DNA of 35,967 nucleotides from an uncultured Prevotellaceae bacterium (lineage in GTDB: Bacteria > Bacteroidota > Bacteroidia > Bacteroidales > Bacteroidaceae): the NCBI GenBank assembly GCA_902800585.1, contig CADCEW010000018.1, positions 1 to 35,967 on the forward strand, written 5' to 3'. Positions 11,813-17,097 of the stretch are shown piece after piece. The translations under genes were made by a program, and so were the position numbers. Numbering within the stretch: the stretch's first letter is position 1; each line of letters starts with the position of its first letter. Under the pieces are notes generated by a model. That model worked only from the letters and a program-made list of their open reading frames with translations, ran no database searches and was not told the origin of the DNA.

Positions 11813-11843
11813 CGTTTTTTTTTCGATTTTTCTTTCAAAATGC

Positions 11844-11874
11844 TTGCATAATTACAGAAAATGTTATACTTTTG
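11844..11874 (+). promoter_or_regulatory. Promoter of the Phe/Tyr operon
   Basis: TTG (11844-11846) and TACTTTTG (11867-11874) are 20 bases apart. Transcription would start near 11878, about 25 bases before the leader peptide and 210 before pheA. Confidence 0.7.
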
Positions 11875-11902
11875 CACCCGATAAGACAAAAACGACAGAA
11901 TA

Positions 11903-11980
11903 ATGTTGAATATGAACGCTTACTTTTACGGTTATTATTTTTACTTTGCAGAGACCTGTGAAGCGGAAAGCCGTATGTAA
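11903..11980 (+). CDS. Tyr/Phe-rich leader peptide of the aromatic operon
   Basis: This 25-residue peptide begins MLNMNAYFYGYYFYF and ends with a hydrophilic segment and TAA. Eight of nine consecutive codons (11921-11947) are aromatic: five Tyr and three Phe, with no Trp. This matches the products of the operon behind it (Phe and Tyr only). A second in-frame ATG at 11912 could also be used. The bases right after the aromatic run (11958-11972) form the 5' arm of an antiterminator. The function is inferred: ribosome stalling on the aromatic codons when charged tRNA-Tyr or tRNA-Phe is scarce would allow read-through into pheA. This was read directly from the DNA. Confidence 0.88.
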   Translation: MLNMNAYFYGYYFYFAETCEAESRM

Positions 11981-11985
11981 GATTA

Positions 11986-12013
11986 ATTGAAATTTGAAGA
12001 TTGAAAATAGAAA
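11986..12013 (+). repeat. 7-bp tandem array between leader peptide and terminator
   Basis: ATTGAAA, TTTGAAG, ATTGAAA and ATAGAAA are in register. The array is A-rich and unstructured, and acts as spacer between the two antiterminator arms. TGA recurs in successive frames. Confidence 0.7.
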
Positions 12014-12020
12014 GATAAGG

Positions 12021-12056
12021 CTCCGCTTCACAAACCAAGTGAAAGCGGAGTTTTTT
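12021..12056 (+). terminator. Attenuator terminator before pheA
   Basis: CTCCGCTTCAC (12021-12031) pairs with GTGAAAGCGGAG (12039-12050) with a single bulged A, followed by six Ts. It lies 34 bases ahead of the pheA start codon, so it must be bypassed for operon expression. Confidence 0.88.
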
Positions 12057-12060
12057 ATAA

Positions 12061-12088
12061 ATTGATAATTGAAAATTGACAATTGAGA
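12061..12088 (+). repeat. 7-bp tandem array before pheA start
   Basis: Four exact-register units, ATTGATA, ATTGAAA, ATTGACA and ATTGAGA, end one base before the ATG at 12090. Every unit carries TGA, which puts stops in all three frames just before the start codon. Confidence 0.9.
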
Positions 12089-12089
12089 T

Positions 12090-12932
12090 ATGAAGAGAAT
12101 TGCGATACAAGGACTGATAGGGTCGTTCCACGATATAGCGGCACACCTCTATTTCGAGGATGAACAGATACAGCTAATCTGTTGTTCCACCTTCGAACAG
12201 GTGTTCCAGCACATGAAGGAAGACCCAACGGCCATCGGTATGCTCGCCATTGAGAATACCATTGCAGGCTCATTGCTGCATAACTATGAGTTGCTGCGTG
12301 ACTCAGGTACAACGATAGTAGGGGAGCATAAGTTGCATATCTCGCATTGTATCTGTTGTCTGCCTGACGATAACTGGGACACGATTACAGAGATTCACTC
12401 GCATCCCGTCGCCCTGATGCAGTGTCGTGAGTTTCTTGCCCAGCATCCGAATATGAAACATGTGGAGGCAGAAGATACGGCAGGCTCGGCGAAGATGATA
12501 GCCGAAGGACAGCATCAAGGATGGGCTGCCATCTGTCATGCCGATGCAGCCAGACAATATGGACTGAAAGTGTTGGAAGACCATATCGAGGACAACAAGC
12601 ATAACTTCACGCGTTTCCTCGTGGTTAGCAATCCCAACAAGGCCGATTTGTTGCGCCCATTGACAGAGGCGAACAAGGCAAGTATCGTTTTCTCACTGCC
12701 TCACGAGGAAGGGTCGCTGAGTCATGTGCTCGCCATTCTCTCGTTCTACAAGATTAACTTGACAAAGATACAGTCATTACCGATTATCGGAAGGGAATGG
12801 GAGTATTTGTTCTATGTCGACCTGATGTACGATGATTTGACACGCTATCGTCAGTCAATCGACGCTATTATTCCATTGACCAAGGACTTTAAGATTTTAG
12901 GAGAATATAAAGATGGTCGTCAGACCAATTGA
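12090..12932 (+). CDS. pheA: Prephenate dehydratase
   Basis: This enzyme converts prephenate to phenylpyruvate, the committed step to phenylalanine. It has 280 residues: a catalytic domain (about 1-180) with IAIQGLIGSFHDIAA, LAIENTIAGSL and the catalytic NFTRF motif near 172-176, then an ACT regulatory domain (about 195-275). In the ACT domain the usual ESRP-type Phe-binding motif reads KIQSLPIIGREWEY. Feedback inhibition by Phe is therefore likely, though the first residue of the motif is Q rather than E. No chorismate mutase domain is attached here; that activity sits on the DAHP synthase two genes on. It is the first structural gene of the attenuated operon. Confidence 0.95.
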   Translation: MKRIAIQGLIGSFHDIAAHLYFEDEQIQLICCSTFEQVFQHMKEDPTAIGMLAIENTIAGSLLHNYELLRDSGTTIVGEHKLHISHCICCLPDDNWDTITEIHSHPVALMQCREFLAQHPNMKHVEAEDTAGSAKMIAEGQHQGWAAICHADAARQYGLKVLEDHIEDNKHNFTRFLVVSNPNKADLLRPLTEANKASIVFSLPHEEGSLSHVLAILSFYKINLTKIQSLPIIGREWEYLFYVDLMYDDLTRYRQSIDAIIPLTKDFKILGEYKDGRQTN

Positions 12933-12951
12933 AAAGTGACAATTGACAATT
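12928..12951 (+). repeat. 7-bp tandem array at pheA/aminotransferase junction
   Basis: ATTGAAA, AGTGACA, ATTGACA and a partial ATT run directly into the ATG at 12952. The pheA stop codon (TGA, 12930-12932) is part of the first unit, so the array forms both the end of one gene and the spacer to the next. Confidence 0.85.
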
Positions 12952-14124
12952 ATGATACAACCAGCAGATAGATTAAGTTTAGTGAGCGAATACTACTTCA
13001 GTCGGAAACTGAAGGAGGTGGCACAGTTGAATGCGGAAGGCAAGGATATCATCAGTCTTGCCATCGGTAGTCCTGATATGCCGCCCTCGGAGCAGACCAT
13101 CAATAAATTATGTGAAGTGGCTCACCAGCCCAATGCTCATGGTTATCAGCCCACGATGGGAACACCTGAGTTGCGCGAAGCAATGGCAGGCTTCTACAAG
13201 CGTTGGTATGATGTCGATCTGGATGCAAAGACAGAAATCCTTCCACTGATTGGTTCAAAGGAGGGTATTCTCCATGTGACGCTGGCCTTCGTCAATCCTG
13301 GTGATGCCGTATTGGTACCTAATCCAGGTTATCCCACCTATACCTCTTTATCTAAAATCTTAGGTGCGAAGATTATCAATTATAATCTCCGTGAGGATAA
13401 TGGTTGGCAACCTGATTTTGACGAACTGGAGAAGATGGACCTCTCGAACGTGAAACTGATGTGGACCAACTATCCAAATATGCCGACAGGTGGTAATGCA
13501 CGTCGTGAGACTTATGAGCGTCTGGTTCAGTTTGCCAAGGACCACAACATCGTCGTGGTGAACGATAACCCCTACAGCTTCATCCTCAACGAAGAGCACC
13601 TCAGTATTCTTCAGGTGCCAGGAGCCAAAGACTGCTGTATCGAGTTCAACTCGATGTCGAAGTCACACAATATGCCTGGTTGGCGTGTGGGACTTTGTGC
13701 TACGAATGCCGAGTTCATCTCATGGATACTGAAGGTACAGTCGAACATTGAGAGTGGTACTTTCCGTGGTATCCAACTGGCTGCCGCTGAGGCTTATAAC
13801 AACAGTGAGGAGTGGCATCGTGAGTATAATATCAATACCTATGCGCGTCGTCGTCAGTGGGCAGAGAAAATCATGGATGTCTTAGGTTGTACGTACGACA
13901 AGAACCAGGTAGGTATGTTCCTTTGGGGAAAAATACCTGCAGATGTCAAGAACGTGGAAGACCTGACAGAAAAGGTGTTGCATGAGGCGCGTGTCTTCAT
14001 CACCCCTGGATTTATCTTCGGCTCGAACGGTGAGCGTTATATCCGCATCTCTCTTTGTGCCAAAGAAGAGAAGATACAGCAAGCCCTTCGAAGAATTGAA
14101 GAATGTAAAAATGCAAAAATGTAA
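12952..14124 (+). CDS. PLP-dependent aminotransferase, class I/II (probable aromatic aminotransferase)
   Basis: This 390-residue fold-type I enzyme has the PLP-binding lysine at residue 237 in SMSKSHNMPGWRVG, a glycine-rich GSKEGI segment, the NYPNMPTGG signature and a C-terminal YIRISL arginine motif. Its position between pheA and the DAHP synthase gene points to transamination of phenylpyruvate and 4-hydroxyphenylpyruvate to Phe and Tyr. By sequence alone it resembles the broad LL-diaminopimelate/aspartate aminotransferase group, so its exact amino donor and range are not certain. The ATG at 12952 was preferred over the in-frame TTG at 12943, which lies inside the 7-bp repeat array. Confidence 0.9.
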   Translation: MIQPADRLSLVSEYYFSRKLKEVAQLNAEGKDIISLAIGSPDMPPSEQTINKLCEVAHQPNAHGYQPTMGTPELREAMAGFYKRWYDVDLDAKTEILPLIGSKEGILHVTLAFVNPGDAVLVPNPGYPTYTSLSKILGAKIINYNLREDNGWQPDFDELEKMDLSNVKLMWTNYPNMPTGGNARRETYERLVQFAKDHNIVVVNDNPYSFILNEEHLSILQVPGAKDCCIEFNSMSKSHNMPGWRVGLCATNAEFISWILKVQSNIESGTFRGIQLAAAEAYNNSEEWHREYNINTYARRRQWAEKIMDVLGCTYDKNQVGMFLWGKIPADVKNVEDLTEKVLHEARVFITPGFIFGSNGERYIRISLCAKEEKIQQALRRIEECKNAKM

Positions 14125-14138
14125 AAAACGATATAACT

Positions 14139-15203
14139 ATGGAATTGGAATTAGAACCCCTGAGATTACCGAGTGACAACGAACGCCCCTTCGTCATTGC
14201 AGGTCCCTGTAGTGCAGAGAGTGAGGAGCAAGTGATGACTACCGCCAAGCAACTGGCGATGTATGGCTGTCATAATTTCCGTGCAGGAGTGTGGAAGCCC
14301 CGTACGAAGCCCGGAGGTTTCGAAGGACACGGAGAACCAGCCCTTGTATGGTTGCAGCAGGTAAAGAAAGAAACGAAGATGCTTGTCGCTACTGAGGTGG
14401 CAACGCCTGAGCATGTGGAACTCTGTCTGAAATATGGTATCGATATTCTGTGGATAGGTGCACGTACTACTGCTAATCCTTTTGCGATGCAGGCTCTTGC
14501 CGATGCACTGAAAGGTGCGGATGTCCCTGTCTTCGTGAAGAATCCCGTTAATCCTGACTTGGAGTTGTGGATTGGTGCACTGGAGCGTTTGAATCAGGCA
14601 GGTGTGAAGCGCATGGCAGCTATTCATCGTGGCTTCTCCAGTTACGACAAGAAGATATATCGTAACATGCCGATGTGGCAGATACCTATCGAATTGCATC
14701 GTCGTATTCCAGAGTTGCCTATCATCAATGACCCCAGTCATATCGGTGGTCGTCGTGAGTTGATTGCTCCGTTGTGTCAGCAGGCGATGGACTTAGGTTT
14801 TGACGGACTGATTGTAGAGAGCCATTGTGATCCTGACAAGGCATGGAGTGATGCCAAGCAGCAGGTAACGCCTGATGTCCTTGACTATATCCTTTCTTTG
14901 CTCGTCATCCGTGATGAACATACCACTACCGAGGGTATTCAGACACTGCGTAAACAGATTGACGAACTCGACAACCAGTTAATGGAGTTGTTGGCCAAGC
15001 GTATGCGCGTATGTCGTGAGATTGGTCACTACAAGAAAGAACATAATATGACTGTGTTGCAGACATCCCGTTATAACGAGATATTGGACAAACGTGGTGC
15101 ACAGGGTTCACTCTTAGGCATGGGGCCTGAGTTCGTTGCCCATGTGTTTGAGAATATCCACGAGGAGAGTGTTCGTCAGCAAATAGAGATTATTAATAAA
15201 TAA
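14139..15203 (+). CDS. Bifunctional DAHP synthase/chorismate mutase
   Basis: This enzyme catalyses the first step of the shikimate pathway (phosphoenolpyruvate plus erythrose 4-phosphate to DAHP) and the chorismate-to-prephenate step. Residues about 15-255 form a type Ib DAHP synthase: IAGPCSAES, FRAGVWKPRTKPGGFEG, PVFVKNPVNPD, AIHRGFSSYDKK and DPSHIGGRRELI. Residues about 265-354 form an AroQ-type chorismate mutase (LRKQIDELDNQLMELLAKRM, then REIGHYKKEHN). In such fusions the mutase part often serves as the allosteric sensor for the synthase, so prephenate or chorismate feedback is plausible. The gene lies 14 bases after the aminotransferase and 3 before tyrA. Confidence 0.94.
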   Translation: MELELEPLRLPSDNERPFVIAGPCSAESEEQVMTTAKQLAMYGCHNFRAGVWKPRTKPGGFEGHGEPALVWLQQVKKETKMLVATEVATPEHVELCLKYGIDILWIGARTTANPFAMQALADALKGADVPVFVKNPVNPDLELWIGALERLNQAGVKRMAAIHRGFSSYDKKIYRNMPMWQIPIELHRRIPELPIINDPSHIGGRRELIAPLCQQAMDLGFDGLIVESHCDPDKAWSDAKQQVTPDVLDYILSLLVIRDEHTTTEGIQTLRKQIDELDNQLMELLAKRMRVCREIGHYKKEHNMTVLQTSRYNEILDKRGAQGSLLGMGPEFVAHVFENIHEESVRQQIEIINK

Positions 15204-15206
15204 GGT

Positions 15207-16001
15207 ATGAAAATACTAGTATTAGGTGCAGGTAAGATGGGAAGTTTTTTCATCGACCTGTTGAGTTTCGACCACGAAGTGGCAGTCTATGAGAAAGACC
15301 CTAAGCGCATGCGGTTTACTTATAACTGTCAGCGGTTTACAGATATGGAGGAGATCAGGGGTTTTGCACCTGAACTCGTCATCAATGCCGTCACGCTGAA
15401 ATATACCATCCCTGTATTTGAAGAAGTGATTCCTTATCTTCCCAAGGAGTGTATCATCAGTGATATTGCCAGTGTGAAAACCGATCTGAAAGAATTCTAT
15501 GAAGGGGCAGGGATGCGCTATGTTTCCACGCACCCGATGTTTGGTCCTACTTTCGCCAACCTGCAACAACTGAGCGAGGAGAATGCCATCATCATCAGTG
15601 AGGGTGACTATATGGGACGTATCTTCTTCAAGGATCTCTACCAGAAGTTAGGACTCAACATCTACGAATATACTTTCGAGGAACATGATAAGACAGTGGC
15701 TTATTCATTGTCTATTCCGTTTGTCTCTACCTTCGTCTTTGCTGCCGTCATGAAGCATCAGGATGCACCAGGTACTACCTTCAAGCGTCACATGCGAATA
15801 GCCAAGGGTGTATTGAACGAAGACGACTATCTCTTGCAGGAAATCCTTTTCAACCCCTATACACATGACCAGGTCAGTCAGATTCGTACAGAGTTGAAAG
15901 AACTCTTAGAGATTATCGATGAGAAGGATGCCAAAGGTATGAAGGCCTATCTCACAAAGATTCGAAATAACGTCAAACGAGACATTGAAATCAACAAATA
16001 G
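15207..16001 (+). CDS. tyrA: Prephenate dehydrogenase
   Basis: This enzyme oxidises and decarboxylates prephenate to 4-hydroxyphenylpyruvate with NAD(P)+, the Tyr branch partner of pheA. It has 264 residues with an N-terminal Rossmann motif GAGKMGSF at 7-14, the conserved SDIASVKTDL segment, STHPMFGPT (catalytic histidine) and a helical dimerisation domain from about 160. No ACT domain is attached, so Tyr feedback is not obvious and control may rest on the attenuator. The start lies 3 bases after the DAHP synthase stop, and the end overlaps the next gene by 17 bases. Confidence 0.93.
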   Translation: MKILVLGAGKMGSFFIDLLSFDHEVAVYEKDPKRMRFTYNCQRFTDMEEIRGFAPELVINAVTLKYTIPVFEEVIPYLPKECIISDIASVKTDLKEFYEGAGMRYVSTHPMFGPTFANLQQLSEENAIIISEGDYMGRIFFKDLYQKLGLNIYEYTFEEHDKTVAYSLSIPFVSTFVFAAVMKHQDAPGTTFKRHMRIAKGVLNEDDYLLQEILFNPYTHDQVSQIRTELKELLEIIDEKDAKGMKAYLTKIRNNVKRDIEINK

Positions 16002-16908
16002 TACAATAGGCTATCATCTGGTAGCCTTCTTGACAGTAGCCATCTGGGGTAGTACCTTTGTCTTTACAAAGATACTGCTTCAGAATGGACTTTCTCCTGC
16101 GCAGATTTTCACGCTGCGCTTTATCATTGCCTATGTACTACTGTTTGGCTATGAGTTGATATTCAAGTATAATAGTTTCCGATTGTTCAGTGATTCGTGG
16201 AAGGATGAACTGCTGATGGTACTGCTGGGTGTGACAGGCGGCTCTGTCTATTTCCTCACAGAGAATGCGGCAATGCTTTTTACGACAGCCACCAATACCT
16301 CGTTGATAGTTTGTTCATGTCCATTGTTCGCGATGTTGGTTTATGCTAATATCTATCGGCATACTGAGCGTTTTACGAAGTTACAGGTATTCGGTTCTCT
16401 ACTTGCTTGTCTGGGTATGGCAGTCGTTGTACTCAATGGTCATTTCGTATTGCACTTGTCTCCATTAGGTGATACGCTTGCTTTTGCTGCCTGTCTTTGT
16501 TGGGCTTTCTATTCTTTGTTGATGAAGCCAGCCACAGAGCGTTATTCCACGCTTTTTATTACACGCAAAGTGTTCTTCTATGGTCTTGTGACAATCATTC
16601 CTTATTATTTCTTTGTACCTAAGGATGTCTCTATCTTCACCACTTCCTTCCATCAACTGTTCAATCCTACTGTTCTTTTGAACCTTCTGTTCCTTGGTGT
16701 CATTGCCTCCATGCTTTGTTTCTTGGTATGGAACTGGGTGATTCATAAGTTGGGAACAGTTGTTGCTACTAATTGGGTCTATTTTAATCCTATTACCACG
16801 ATTATTTTTGCATGGTGGCTGTTACATGAACAAATTACACCTTGGTTCCTTTTAGGTACTTTTTGTATTTTGGTCGGTATGTTTCTCTGTGATCATAGGA
16901 AATATTAA
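15985..16908 (+). CDS. DMT-superfamily (EamA) transporter, TTG start
   Basis: This 307-residue inner-membrane protein has ten hydrophobic segments arranged as two EamA repeats (AIWGSTFVFTK near residue 19 and a second GDTLAFAACLCWAFYSLLMK near 157). Such carriers usually export metabolites. As the last gene of the Phe/Tyr operon it may export aromatic amino acids, as YddG does in enterobacteria; this is inference from position. No ATG exists at the expected N-terminus. The TTG at 15985 gives MKSTNSTIGYHLVAFLTVA, typical of the family, and makes the gene overlap tyrA by 17 bases, suggesting coupled translation. Confidence 0.85.
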   Translation: MKSTNSTIGYHLVAFLTVAIWGSTFVFTKILLQNGLSPAQIFTLRFIIAYVLLFGYELIFKYNSFRLFSDSWKDELLMVLLGVTGGSVYFLTENAAMLFTTATNTSLIVCSCPLFAMLVYANIYRHTERFTKLQVFGSLLACLGMAVVVLNGHFVLHLSPLGDTLAFAACLCWAFYSLLMKPATERYSTLFITRKVFFYGLVTIIPYYFFVPKDVSIFTTSFHQLFNPTVLLNLLFLGVIASMLCFLVWNWVIHKLGTVVATNWVYFNPITTIIFAWWLLHEQITPWFLLGTFCILVGMFLCDHRKY

Positions 16909-17014: not shown

Positions 17015-17097
17015 GTTCCCCAGTTGGGGAGAACAATGAATAGTTGATAAATTTGTTGATCGTTCCTTTGCCGTGAGGCAGGGGAACGGTTTTTTTT
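17015..17097 (+). ncRNA. Candidate small structured RNA or leader with alternative folds
   Basis: From about 17015 the RNA can fold a 5' hairpin (GTTCCCC 17015-17021 with the GGGGAGAAC region 17026-17034) and a 3' terminator (17061-17088 plus eight Ts). GTTCCCC is also perfectly complementary to GGGGAAC (17081-17087) inside the terminator, so the two ends can pair instead. Only a three-codon frame (ATG AAT AGT TGA) is present, so it is not a peptide-coding leader. The next gene has its own promoter, which favours a standalone RNA of about 80-85 bases. The family is not recognised. Confidence 0.5.
17061..17097 (+). terminator. Strong terminator of the small RNA
   Basis: CGTTCC (17061-17066) pairs with GGAACG (17083-17088), two T-G pairs follow, and TGCC/GGCA closes on a GTGA tetraloop. 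Eight Ts follow (17090-17097). Confidence 0.85.

Follow-up and report, generated by a model that had tools for sequence, protein, structure and literature searches.

The stretch analysed here, called the window below, comprises 35,967 nucleotides (nt) of contig CADCEW010000018.1 (assembly GCA_902800585.1) from an uncultured Prevotellaceae bacterium. On its + strand, immediately upstream of a pheA gene, lies a putative transcription attenuator whose leader peptide is rich in both tyrosine (Tyr) and phenylalanine (Phe); all features described below are on this strand. A Bacteroidota-type promoter can be read from the sequence at 11844–11874, with TTG at 11844–11846 and TAnnTTTG at 11867–11874, and the transcript is expected to start near 11880. 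The leader open reading frame (ORF), 11903–11980, has 25 codons and encodes MLNMNAYFYGYYFYFAETCEAESRM; its ATG is at 11903, a second ATG lies within the frame at 11912, the TAA stop occupies 11978–11980, and there is no Shine–Dalgarno (SD) sequence. Codons 7 to 15 (11921–11947), the control codons, read Tyr-Phe-Tyr-Gly-Tyr-Tyr-Phe-Tyr-Phe, that is, eight aromatic codons in nine: five Tyr, three Phe, and zero tryptophan (Trp). In the window, 13 large ORFs together use Phe or Tyr at 430 of 5881 codons (7.3%), and from this background, eight aromatic codons in nine would be expected about 0.0005 times over all starting points on both strands. A preliminary description of this DNA had claimed the promoter and the 25-codon leader with its eight aromatic codons, and direct reading of the sequence confirms both. 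A simple consensus scan of the window did not list the promoter, which is not of the sigma-70 type sought by the scan.

The window has each of the four segments known from classical attenuators. Folding places a 1:2 hairpin at 11919–11981 (core 11944–11951 with 11956–11963); it lies inside the leader frame, may be a pause or protector hairpin, and was absent from the preliminary description. Segment 2, the 5′ arm of the antiterminator (11957–11967), is in the leader frame downstream of the control codons and is the perfect partner of segment 3 (12022–12032), which is common to antiterminator and terminator. The intrinsic terminator, a hairpin followed by a T-tract, spans 12017–12056, with 12017–12031 paired to 12039–12054 and the T-tract at 12051–12056. 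The terminator previously claimed before pheA is borne out by sequence and folding, which put it at 12017–12054, and the antiterminator arm said to share bases with it is likewise recovered, the common bases being 12022–12032, one base off the 12021–12031 first given. The simple consensus scan did not list this terminator either; its stem has a bulge. The computed folding energy of the leader region is −44.2 kcal/mol, whereas shuffled sequences give −27.2 (standard deviation, sd, 3.4; z −5.0; 0 of 200 shuffles as low), and the antiterminator stretch has a z of −4.05, with 1 of 200 shuffles as low.

The gene order behind the attenuator is pheA–aminotransferase–DAHPS/CM–tyrA–DMT transporter. The prephenate dehydratase gene pheA (12090–12932) has its best NCBIfam match below the curated cut-off of that model, and its nearest named record, at 99% identity, is from the uncultured Prevotellaceae metagenome-assembled genome RUG11506. 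It is followed by a pyridoxal phosphate (PLP) aminotransferase with an LL-diaminopimelate (LL-DAP) aminotransferase-like profile (12943–14124), whose Bacteroides thetaiotaomicron counterpart is named hisHb in the available text of PMC1173090; by a 3-deoxy-D-arabino-heptulosonate 7-phosphate (DAHP) synthase fused to chorismate mutase (DAHPS/CM, 14139–15203); and by tyrA, prephenate dehydrogenase (15207–16001). These last two, like the drug/metabolite transporter (DMT)-family gene at 15985–16908, are profile matches; the operon gene names all express profile similarity, with matches below the NCBIfam curated cut-offs. The transporter gene overlaps the end of tyrA and is probably cotranscribed. 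It has weak similarity to the aromatic exporter YddG and precedes a terminator-like hairpin at 17058–17091, a possible operon end that is only suggestive, the consensus scan having found 6 such sites in the region against a chance expectation of 5.7. The operon first described as complete is so for the Phe/Tyr branch plus DAHPS/CM, not for the whole shikimate pathway.

Is this arrangement kept in related genomes? In the genus sample, PheA was found in 120 of 150 genomes, and 70 loci were read: the window, the 29 best matches, and 40 from the other 90. A leader with at least 7 Phe/Tyr codons in 10, no more than 300 nt upstream, is present in 68 of the 70. Conservation of the aromatic run, which the preliminary description had proposed as a check, is thereby seen in related genomes; what the relatives keep is the aromatic class of the run, Phe and Tyr interchanging. 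We also fetched 80 named relatives (Prevotella, Prevotellaceae, Xylanibacter, Bacteroidaceae, or Bacteroidales, many from ruminant stomachs), a set that may overlap the genus one. All 79 loci with enough upstream DNA have the leader, and 64 of the 79 match a strict motif for segments 2-3-4. For the order, PheA was found in 62 other genomes of 148 searched, and 60 loci were fetched. Automatic scoring found a unit of leader plus terminator at 115 of these 130 loci (70 genus, 60 order), under a terminator rule relaxed after a stricter one had missed several loci. Two of the 15 misses have less than 100 nt of upstream DNA, and at five missed loci (L006, L017, L038, L086, and L128), which were not counted as units, leader and hairpin are present by eye. 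Farther out, a unit lies within 700 nt upstream of pheA at 25 of 40 loci in other orders of the class and at 3 of 40 outside the class; a unit 1.4 kb upstream in L191 was left out as too distant. The same rule, applied to the reverse strand and the downstream parts of these 80 loci, gives a chance rate of 13 units in about 948 kb. The predicted attenuator element is common, not universal.

Many relatives share the promoter, and nearly all lack SD sequences. Of 64 units in the genus, 61 have the TAnnTTTG motif in the 90 nt preceding the leader start, as do 41 of 59 in the order and 11 of 29 in the class/phylum group, where shuffles lead one to expect 4.1, 4.4, and 3.0; an SD-like motif occurs in 3 of 64, 0 of 59, and 0 of 29.

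Several variants deserve mention. Eight genus loci (L049, L051, L058, L062, L063, L067, L068, and L070) have the terminator stem shifted upstream, ACGGTCC with GGACCGT or similar, and keep the antiterminator arm. Many genus relatives (e.g., L035, L044, and L053), not including the window, carry an inverted repeat, AAGTTG ... CAACTT, just after segment 2. At L037, pheA stands directly behind an apparent trpA end (by eye), without a leader and with no aminotransferase, DAHPS, or tyrA match downstream; this pheA has perhaps been absorbed into a trp operon. Outside the class, L205 has a candidate leader, FSFYFYFYF, with a GTG start, 543–399 nt upstream of the matched domain. Its antiterminator beats all 200 shuffles, and chance or a distant member of the family could both apply.

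The two arms of the antiterminator are matched to each other within each unit. Of 124 units, 116 have a duplex that outperforms shuffled sequence at p ≤ 0.05, and swapping segment 3 among units weakens the pairing: the mean is −15.6 kcal/mol with the unit's own segment 3 and −10.2 with a swapped one in the order, −16.4 and −11.0 in the class/phylum group, and −22.1 and −19.6 in the genus, where the difference is smaller because the arms are nearly identical. The observed mean for own pairing was reached by 0 of 2000 permutations in each group. In addition, the position of segment 2 follows the control codons closely. Counted from the first base of the run's final aromatic codon, it starts at a median of 11 (genus), 12 (order), and 10 (class/phylum) nt, and 97%, 91%, and 86% of 64, 57, and 29 units, three order units with weak duplexes being left out, have it 8–17 nt past that base, against 19–26% of shuffles. 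The sd of this distance is 2.3, 2.7, and 3.3, while that of the distance from the stop codon to segment 2 is 5.2, 12.4, and 11.4. From ribosome footprints, a point about 11 nt past the first base of a codon is where the front edge of a ribosome holding that codon in its A site would lie.

The consequence of ribosome position was computed by folding the RNA as it would be before segment 4 is made. With the ribosome stalled on the control codons, the 5′ arm of the terminator is held upstream with a median probability of 0.84, 0.77, and 0.69 (genus, order, class/phylum), and with the ribosome at the stop codon, this falls to 0.19, 0.05, and 0.10; for the window, the values are 0.91 and 0.35. The arm is held at a probability above 0.5 in 62 of 64, 56 of 60, and 27 of 29 units in the stalled state and in 0, 2, and 0 units with the ribosome at the stop codon. 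In this model, segment 2 is predicted to be free while the ribosome sits on the control codons and covered when it sits at the stop codon. Support of a different kind comes from alignment A1, 64 genus sequences running from the end of the aromatic run to the terminator; the shuffles used with it ignore the relatedness of the sequences. For the terminator, 7 pairs show double changes, in 62 cells altogether; 0 of 500 shuffles match the number of cells and 44 of 500 that of pairs. For the 1:2 hairpin, a single pair that alternates between A-U and G-C accounts for 21 double-change cells (0 of 500 shuffles).

The preliminary description held that the codon content of the run matches the products of the genes behind it, and the comparison of operons bears this out: the mean Tyr fraction is 0.48 with further pathway genes and 0.07 with pheA alone. 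Both Phe and Tyr occur in 151 of 153 units. In the order, three units have only pheA after the leader: the two exceptions, L073 and L111, and L106, which has one Tyr. The families of these three loci were then searched with a looser leader rule, 4 aromatic codons in 10, and the runs of 16 leader-bearing loci where pheA stands alone contain 89 Phe and 7 Tyr (mean Tyr fraction 0.07, maximum 0.20). Where pheA is followed by more genes of the pathway (149 units at 138 loci), the mean is 0.48 and the minimum 0.11; L073, L106, L111, and L024, whose contig ends just behind pheA and whose leader is mixed, were left out of this set. The two groups differ by a Mann–Whitney test (p 5e-11, relatedness ignored). 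A 17th stand-alone pheA, L086, found by eye, also has a Phe-only run, and in family f16, where further genes are present (L305–L321), 17 of 17 leaders are mixed. The loci from the family search were checked over at most 1.5 kb downstream, tyrA matches are weak in sequences this distant, and L331 ends at a contig edge. No leader was detected at the stand-alone pheA loci L326, L332, L335, L342, L344, L082, L087, and L130.

A lone pheA with a Phe-only or nearly Phe-only run is found in four separate PheA lineages. In a tree of 99 PheA rows, four changes separate the 16 stand-alone loci with Phe leaders from 76 operon loci, a number given by the best tree, by the minimum forced by well-supported branches, and by the bootstraps. 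The four places are L073, beside L088 with its mixed leader; L086, among relatives with mixed leaders; the f92 clade, which adjoins L099, again with a mixed leader; and the f36 clade. What has become of the other genes in such genomes? In genome G164, DAHPS and a weak tyrA match form an operon apart from pheA, behind the Tyr-rich leader MNNTFGYYAFYYYFFYNN, and G241 has a separate aminotransferase–tyrA–DAHPS operon with two Tyr-rich leaders, the first with a borderline antiterminator (10 of 200 shuffles) and the second with a clear one (0 of 200). In G184, an f36 genome, the DAHPS match is at the contig start, and the leader region is out of reach. As to other members of the regulon, stretches of five consecutive Phe/Tyr codons matched 86 times in the genome of the window and 116 times in a reversed control, and no further members were discernible. 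Trp codons are found in the leader of 30 of the 153 units (e.g., L091, L096, L105, and L124), in many cases within the run or at its end; such leaders are possibly three-way sensors, as DAHP synthase also feeds Trp.

Some loci have two complete units in series. These are the order loci L079, L080, L112, L115, L120, L127, and L129, from six families, in all of which both antiterminators have p ≤ 0.05. By the antiterminator test, L155 and L329 are also tandem, and L330 is borderline; L072 looks tandem by eye only. Automatic tandem calls at L071 and L118 were rejected, one or both antiterminators failing to beat the shuffles, and so was L159, in which the second unit fails the test. At L292, two units, the first of them borderline, precede a separate aminotransferase–tyrA–DAHPS operon.

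We propose that the element works as follows. The leader would be translated while being transcribed. When Phe-tRNA or Tyr-tRNA is scarce, the ribosome would stall in the nine-codon run, its front edge halting just short of segment 2 (11957–11967); segment 2, left free, would capture segment 3 (12022–12032), no terminator would form, and the polymerase would enter pheA–aminotransferase–DAHPS/CM–tyrA. When both amino acids are plentiful, the ribosome would reach the stop codon and cover segment 2, segment 3 would pair with segment 4, and transcription would end at 12051–12056. Because either amino acid can stall the ribosome, the run would act as an OR gate for shortage. The leader codons, the geometry, the matched arms, and the tuning of codons to genes together support ribosome-mediated attenuation tuned to both amino acids, and we regard it as very likely that the element is a transcription attenuator of this kind, reading charged tRNA-Phe and tRNA-Tyr together. 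The phe/trp-type logic put forward in the preliminary description is, accordingly, supported by conservation, swapped arms, the ruler formed by codon and segment 2, covariation in two of three stems, and the codon/gene match. The evidence on anatomy, conservation, geometry, pairing, and gene-content tuning is all comparative or computed, and from it we infer that the leader is translated in step with transcription, that ribosomes stall on it, that transcripts terminate, and that Tyr is sensed in addition to Phe.

Other explanations have to be weighed. The Tyr codons might be passengers in a sensor for which only the charging of Phe-tRNA matters: Phe and Tyr codons differ by one base, and the Phe-Tyr-Phe leader of Corynebacterium glutamicum aroR is said, in the text available of PMC11802643, to answer to Phe and not to Tyr, a precedent that tells against our proposal. 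However, the Tyr fraction averages 0.48 where aminotransferase, DAHPS, or tyrA follows and 0.07 at lone pheA genes, and in both readable genomes, the pheA-less tyrA–DAHPS operons have Tyr-rich leaders, so we consider a Phe-only sensor unlikely. The near fixation of YFYGYYFYF in close relatives (61 of 79) and its reappearance in a distant class member, L143, might instead point to arrest by the nascent peptide in the manner of TnaC, perhaps with free Phe or Tyr as ligand. Yet within the order Phe and Tyr replace each other, neither the length of the run nor the residues beside it are fixed, and what stays constant is the distance from the last aromatic codon to segment 2 rather than any peptide motif; peptide arrest seems to us quite improbable.

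Because the leader is structured and a terminator precedes the biosynthetic genes, the element could also be a riboswitch that binds Phe or Tyr, or a protein-binding leader, the ORF being incidental. At gathering score, the Rfam covariance models gave 0 matches in the window, and a relaxed scan of 11840–12090 gave six, all at chance level and none of them an amino-acid leader or T-box. A conserved aptamer apart from the terminator was not found in A1, in which invariant columns occur in segments 2 and 3 only; moreover, the aromatic codons are conserved and the geometry is tied to the last of them, and this explanation therefore strikes us as highly improbable. We give just as little credence to a small-protein or small RNA gene with its own terminator and no part in pheA control. 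A short ORF with promoter and terminator would fit such a gene, but the codon content tracks the downstream genes, each antiterminator arm fits the terminator of its own unit best, and elsewhere such units turn up by chance at 13 in 948 kb.

Ribosome-mediated attenuation by a mixed Phe/Tyr run has, in turn, several results against it. No unit was detected at 15 of the 40 class loci outside the order or at 37 of the 40 outside the class, and 13 of the 15 unit-less class loci have aminotransferase, DAHPS, or tyrA behind pheA by automatic assignment. Within the order, L066 and L081, the latter in a genome of 1.2 Mb, retain operon genes without a leader. Thus relatives that keep the operon and lack the element, which the preliminary description had named as damaging, are rare within the order and commoner beyond it. 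Three units with other genes behind pheA have a Tyr fraction of only 0.11–0.18. Covariation of the antiterminator is weak in the genus, with 10 double-change cells over 5 pairs (5 of 500 shuffles); its score was reached by 50 of 500 shuffles and its further pair types by 94 of 500. The bases of the arms hardly vary, which explains this weakness; covariation of both stems, as first envisaged, holds for the terminator (0 of 500 shuffles for cells) and is weak for the antiterminator. Finally, at equilibrium with the ribosome masking the last control codon, the terminator still wins in 44 of 64, 46 of 60, and 25 of 29 units, the window having a probability of 0.45 with the ribosome stalled, and with no ribosome on the RNA, upstream pairing also sequesters most of the terminator arm at the stage preceding segment 4 (0.74, 0.67, and 0.72), although the terminator wins at equilibrium in 60 of 64, 52 of 60, and 26 of 29 units. 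As a protector, the 1:2 hairpin would lead to termination on an untranslated leader; the equilibrium result fits such a role and the earlier stage does not, so the hairpin may or may not act in this way. Equilibrium folding with a masked ribosome fails to separate stalled from terminating states in most units; the calculation before segment 4 separates them. Since the terminator usually wins at equilibrium either way, the switch must be kinetic. The trp attenuator is likewise kinetic.

Beyond the window, the comparisons suggest a Bacteroidia family of attenuators with a mixed-run OR gate, re-tuned with gene content (Phe-only at lone pheA, Tyr-rich before tyrA–DAHPS) and repeatedly doubled; on balance, we think that such a family probably exists. 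It would imply close coupling of transcription and translation on leaders without SD sequences in this phylum, and because the mechanism needs a ribosome close behind the polymerase, the ruler of about 11 nt in these leaders makes coupling in Bacteroidota testable. The natural splits of the operon offer an evolutionary test of the codon logic, and in the tandem units, nature has provided a case in which the benefit of a second terminator in series can be studied. Leader-peptide attenuation is a textbook matter in enterobacteria, which control Phe synthesis by an attenuator and leave Tyr to a repressor; in a major group of gut and rumen bacteria, the two amino acids are apparently read together.

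The preliminary description knew of no described example in the phylum. This must be qualified: a putative attenuator before pheA>hisHb>aroAIb-aroQ>tyrA of B. thetaiotaomicron, the same operon and order as in the window, was listed in 2005 (Table 7 of PMC1173090, taken from the Merino web site). That entry predicts terminator and antiterminator and, in the available text, gives no leader peptide, codon content, or comparative test. In Flavobacterium psychrophilum, the available parts of PMC9723704 report a structured 5′ element before pheA, kept in other Flavobacteriaceae genera and with no Rfam hit, and propose leader-peptide attenuation for amino-acid operons; codon content and mechanism of the pheA element are not stated there. 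Short ORFs in long 5′ untranslated regions of B. thetaiotaomicron have been called reminiscent of attenuation leader peptides (PMC7366714), the example being BT_4401, with pheA absent from the main text. There are also two candidate upstream ORFs encoding Phe and Tyr near shikimate genes (legend to Fig. 6b of PMC6429828), which share with our leader the link to aromatic biosynthesis; the passages available do not name organisms or structure. The mixed run as a common design of this class was not found described: our literature search turned up no Phe+Tyr leader in Bacteroidota, although PMC6429828, known from those passages, Vitreschak 2004, and Lopatovskaya 2010 may bear on the point, nor tandem leader attenuators before pheA or codon content that follows operon content.

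Known attenuators share parts of the design. The Bacteroid-trp RNA is a Bacteroidetes cis-regulatory RNA of the trp operon, and the ilvGMEDA leader mixes codons for several end products, as the window leader does. The C. glutamicum AroR leader was reportedly studied by Neshat et al. in 2014. The Bacteroid-trp RNA, listed as RF01692 in the available text of PMC2864571, has no match in the window or, at E ≤ 0.001, in the genome that the window comes from. The multivalent attenuator of ilvGMEDA, as the accessible text of PMC1183508 has it, serves branched-chain amino acids and a different operon. AroR is a Phe-Tyr-Phe leader before a DAHP synthase operon, but it belongs to another phylum, has three control codons, and answers to Phe, not Tyr, according to the part of PMC11802643 at hand. 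Two leader ORFs control attenuation within one leader in Salmonella mgtCBR, on the excerpted account of PMC3641672; its signals and operon differ, and the Phe/Tyr tandem units occur in relatives, not in the window.

Another parallel is the E. coli pheA leader attenuator, which has the four-segment structure. Like the window, E. coli PheL has leader control codons and a terminator before pheA (PMC8262941 and PMC11802643, as far as their available text goes). PheL, however, has Phe codons, whereas the window has a mixed Tyr/Phe run, no SD sequence, and no match to an Rfam leader, and its operon, unlike E. coli pheA, also holds the aminotransferase, DAHPS/CM, and tyrA. The proposed mechanism is therefore of a known kind, and it is the mixed run matched to its genes and the tandem double attenuators that look new.

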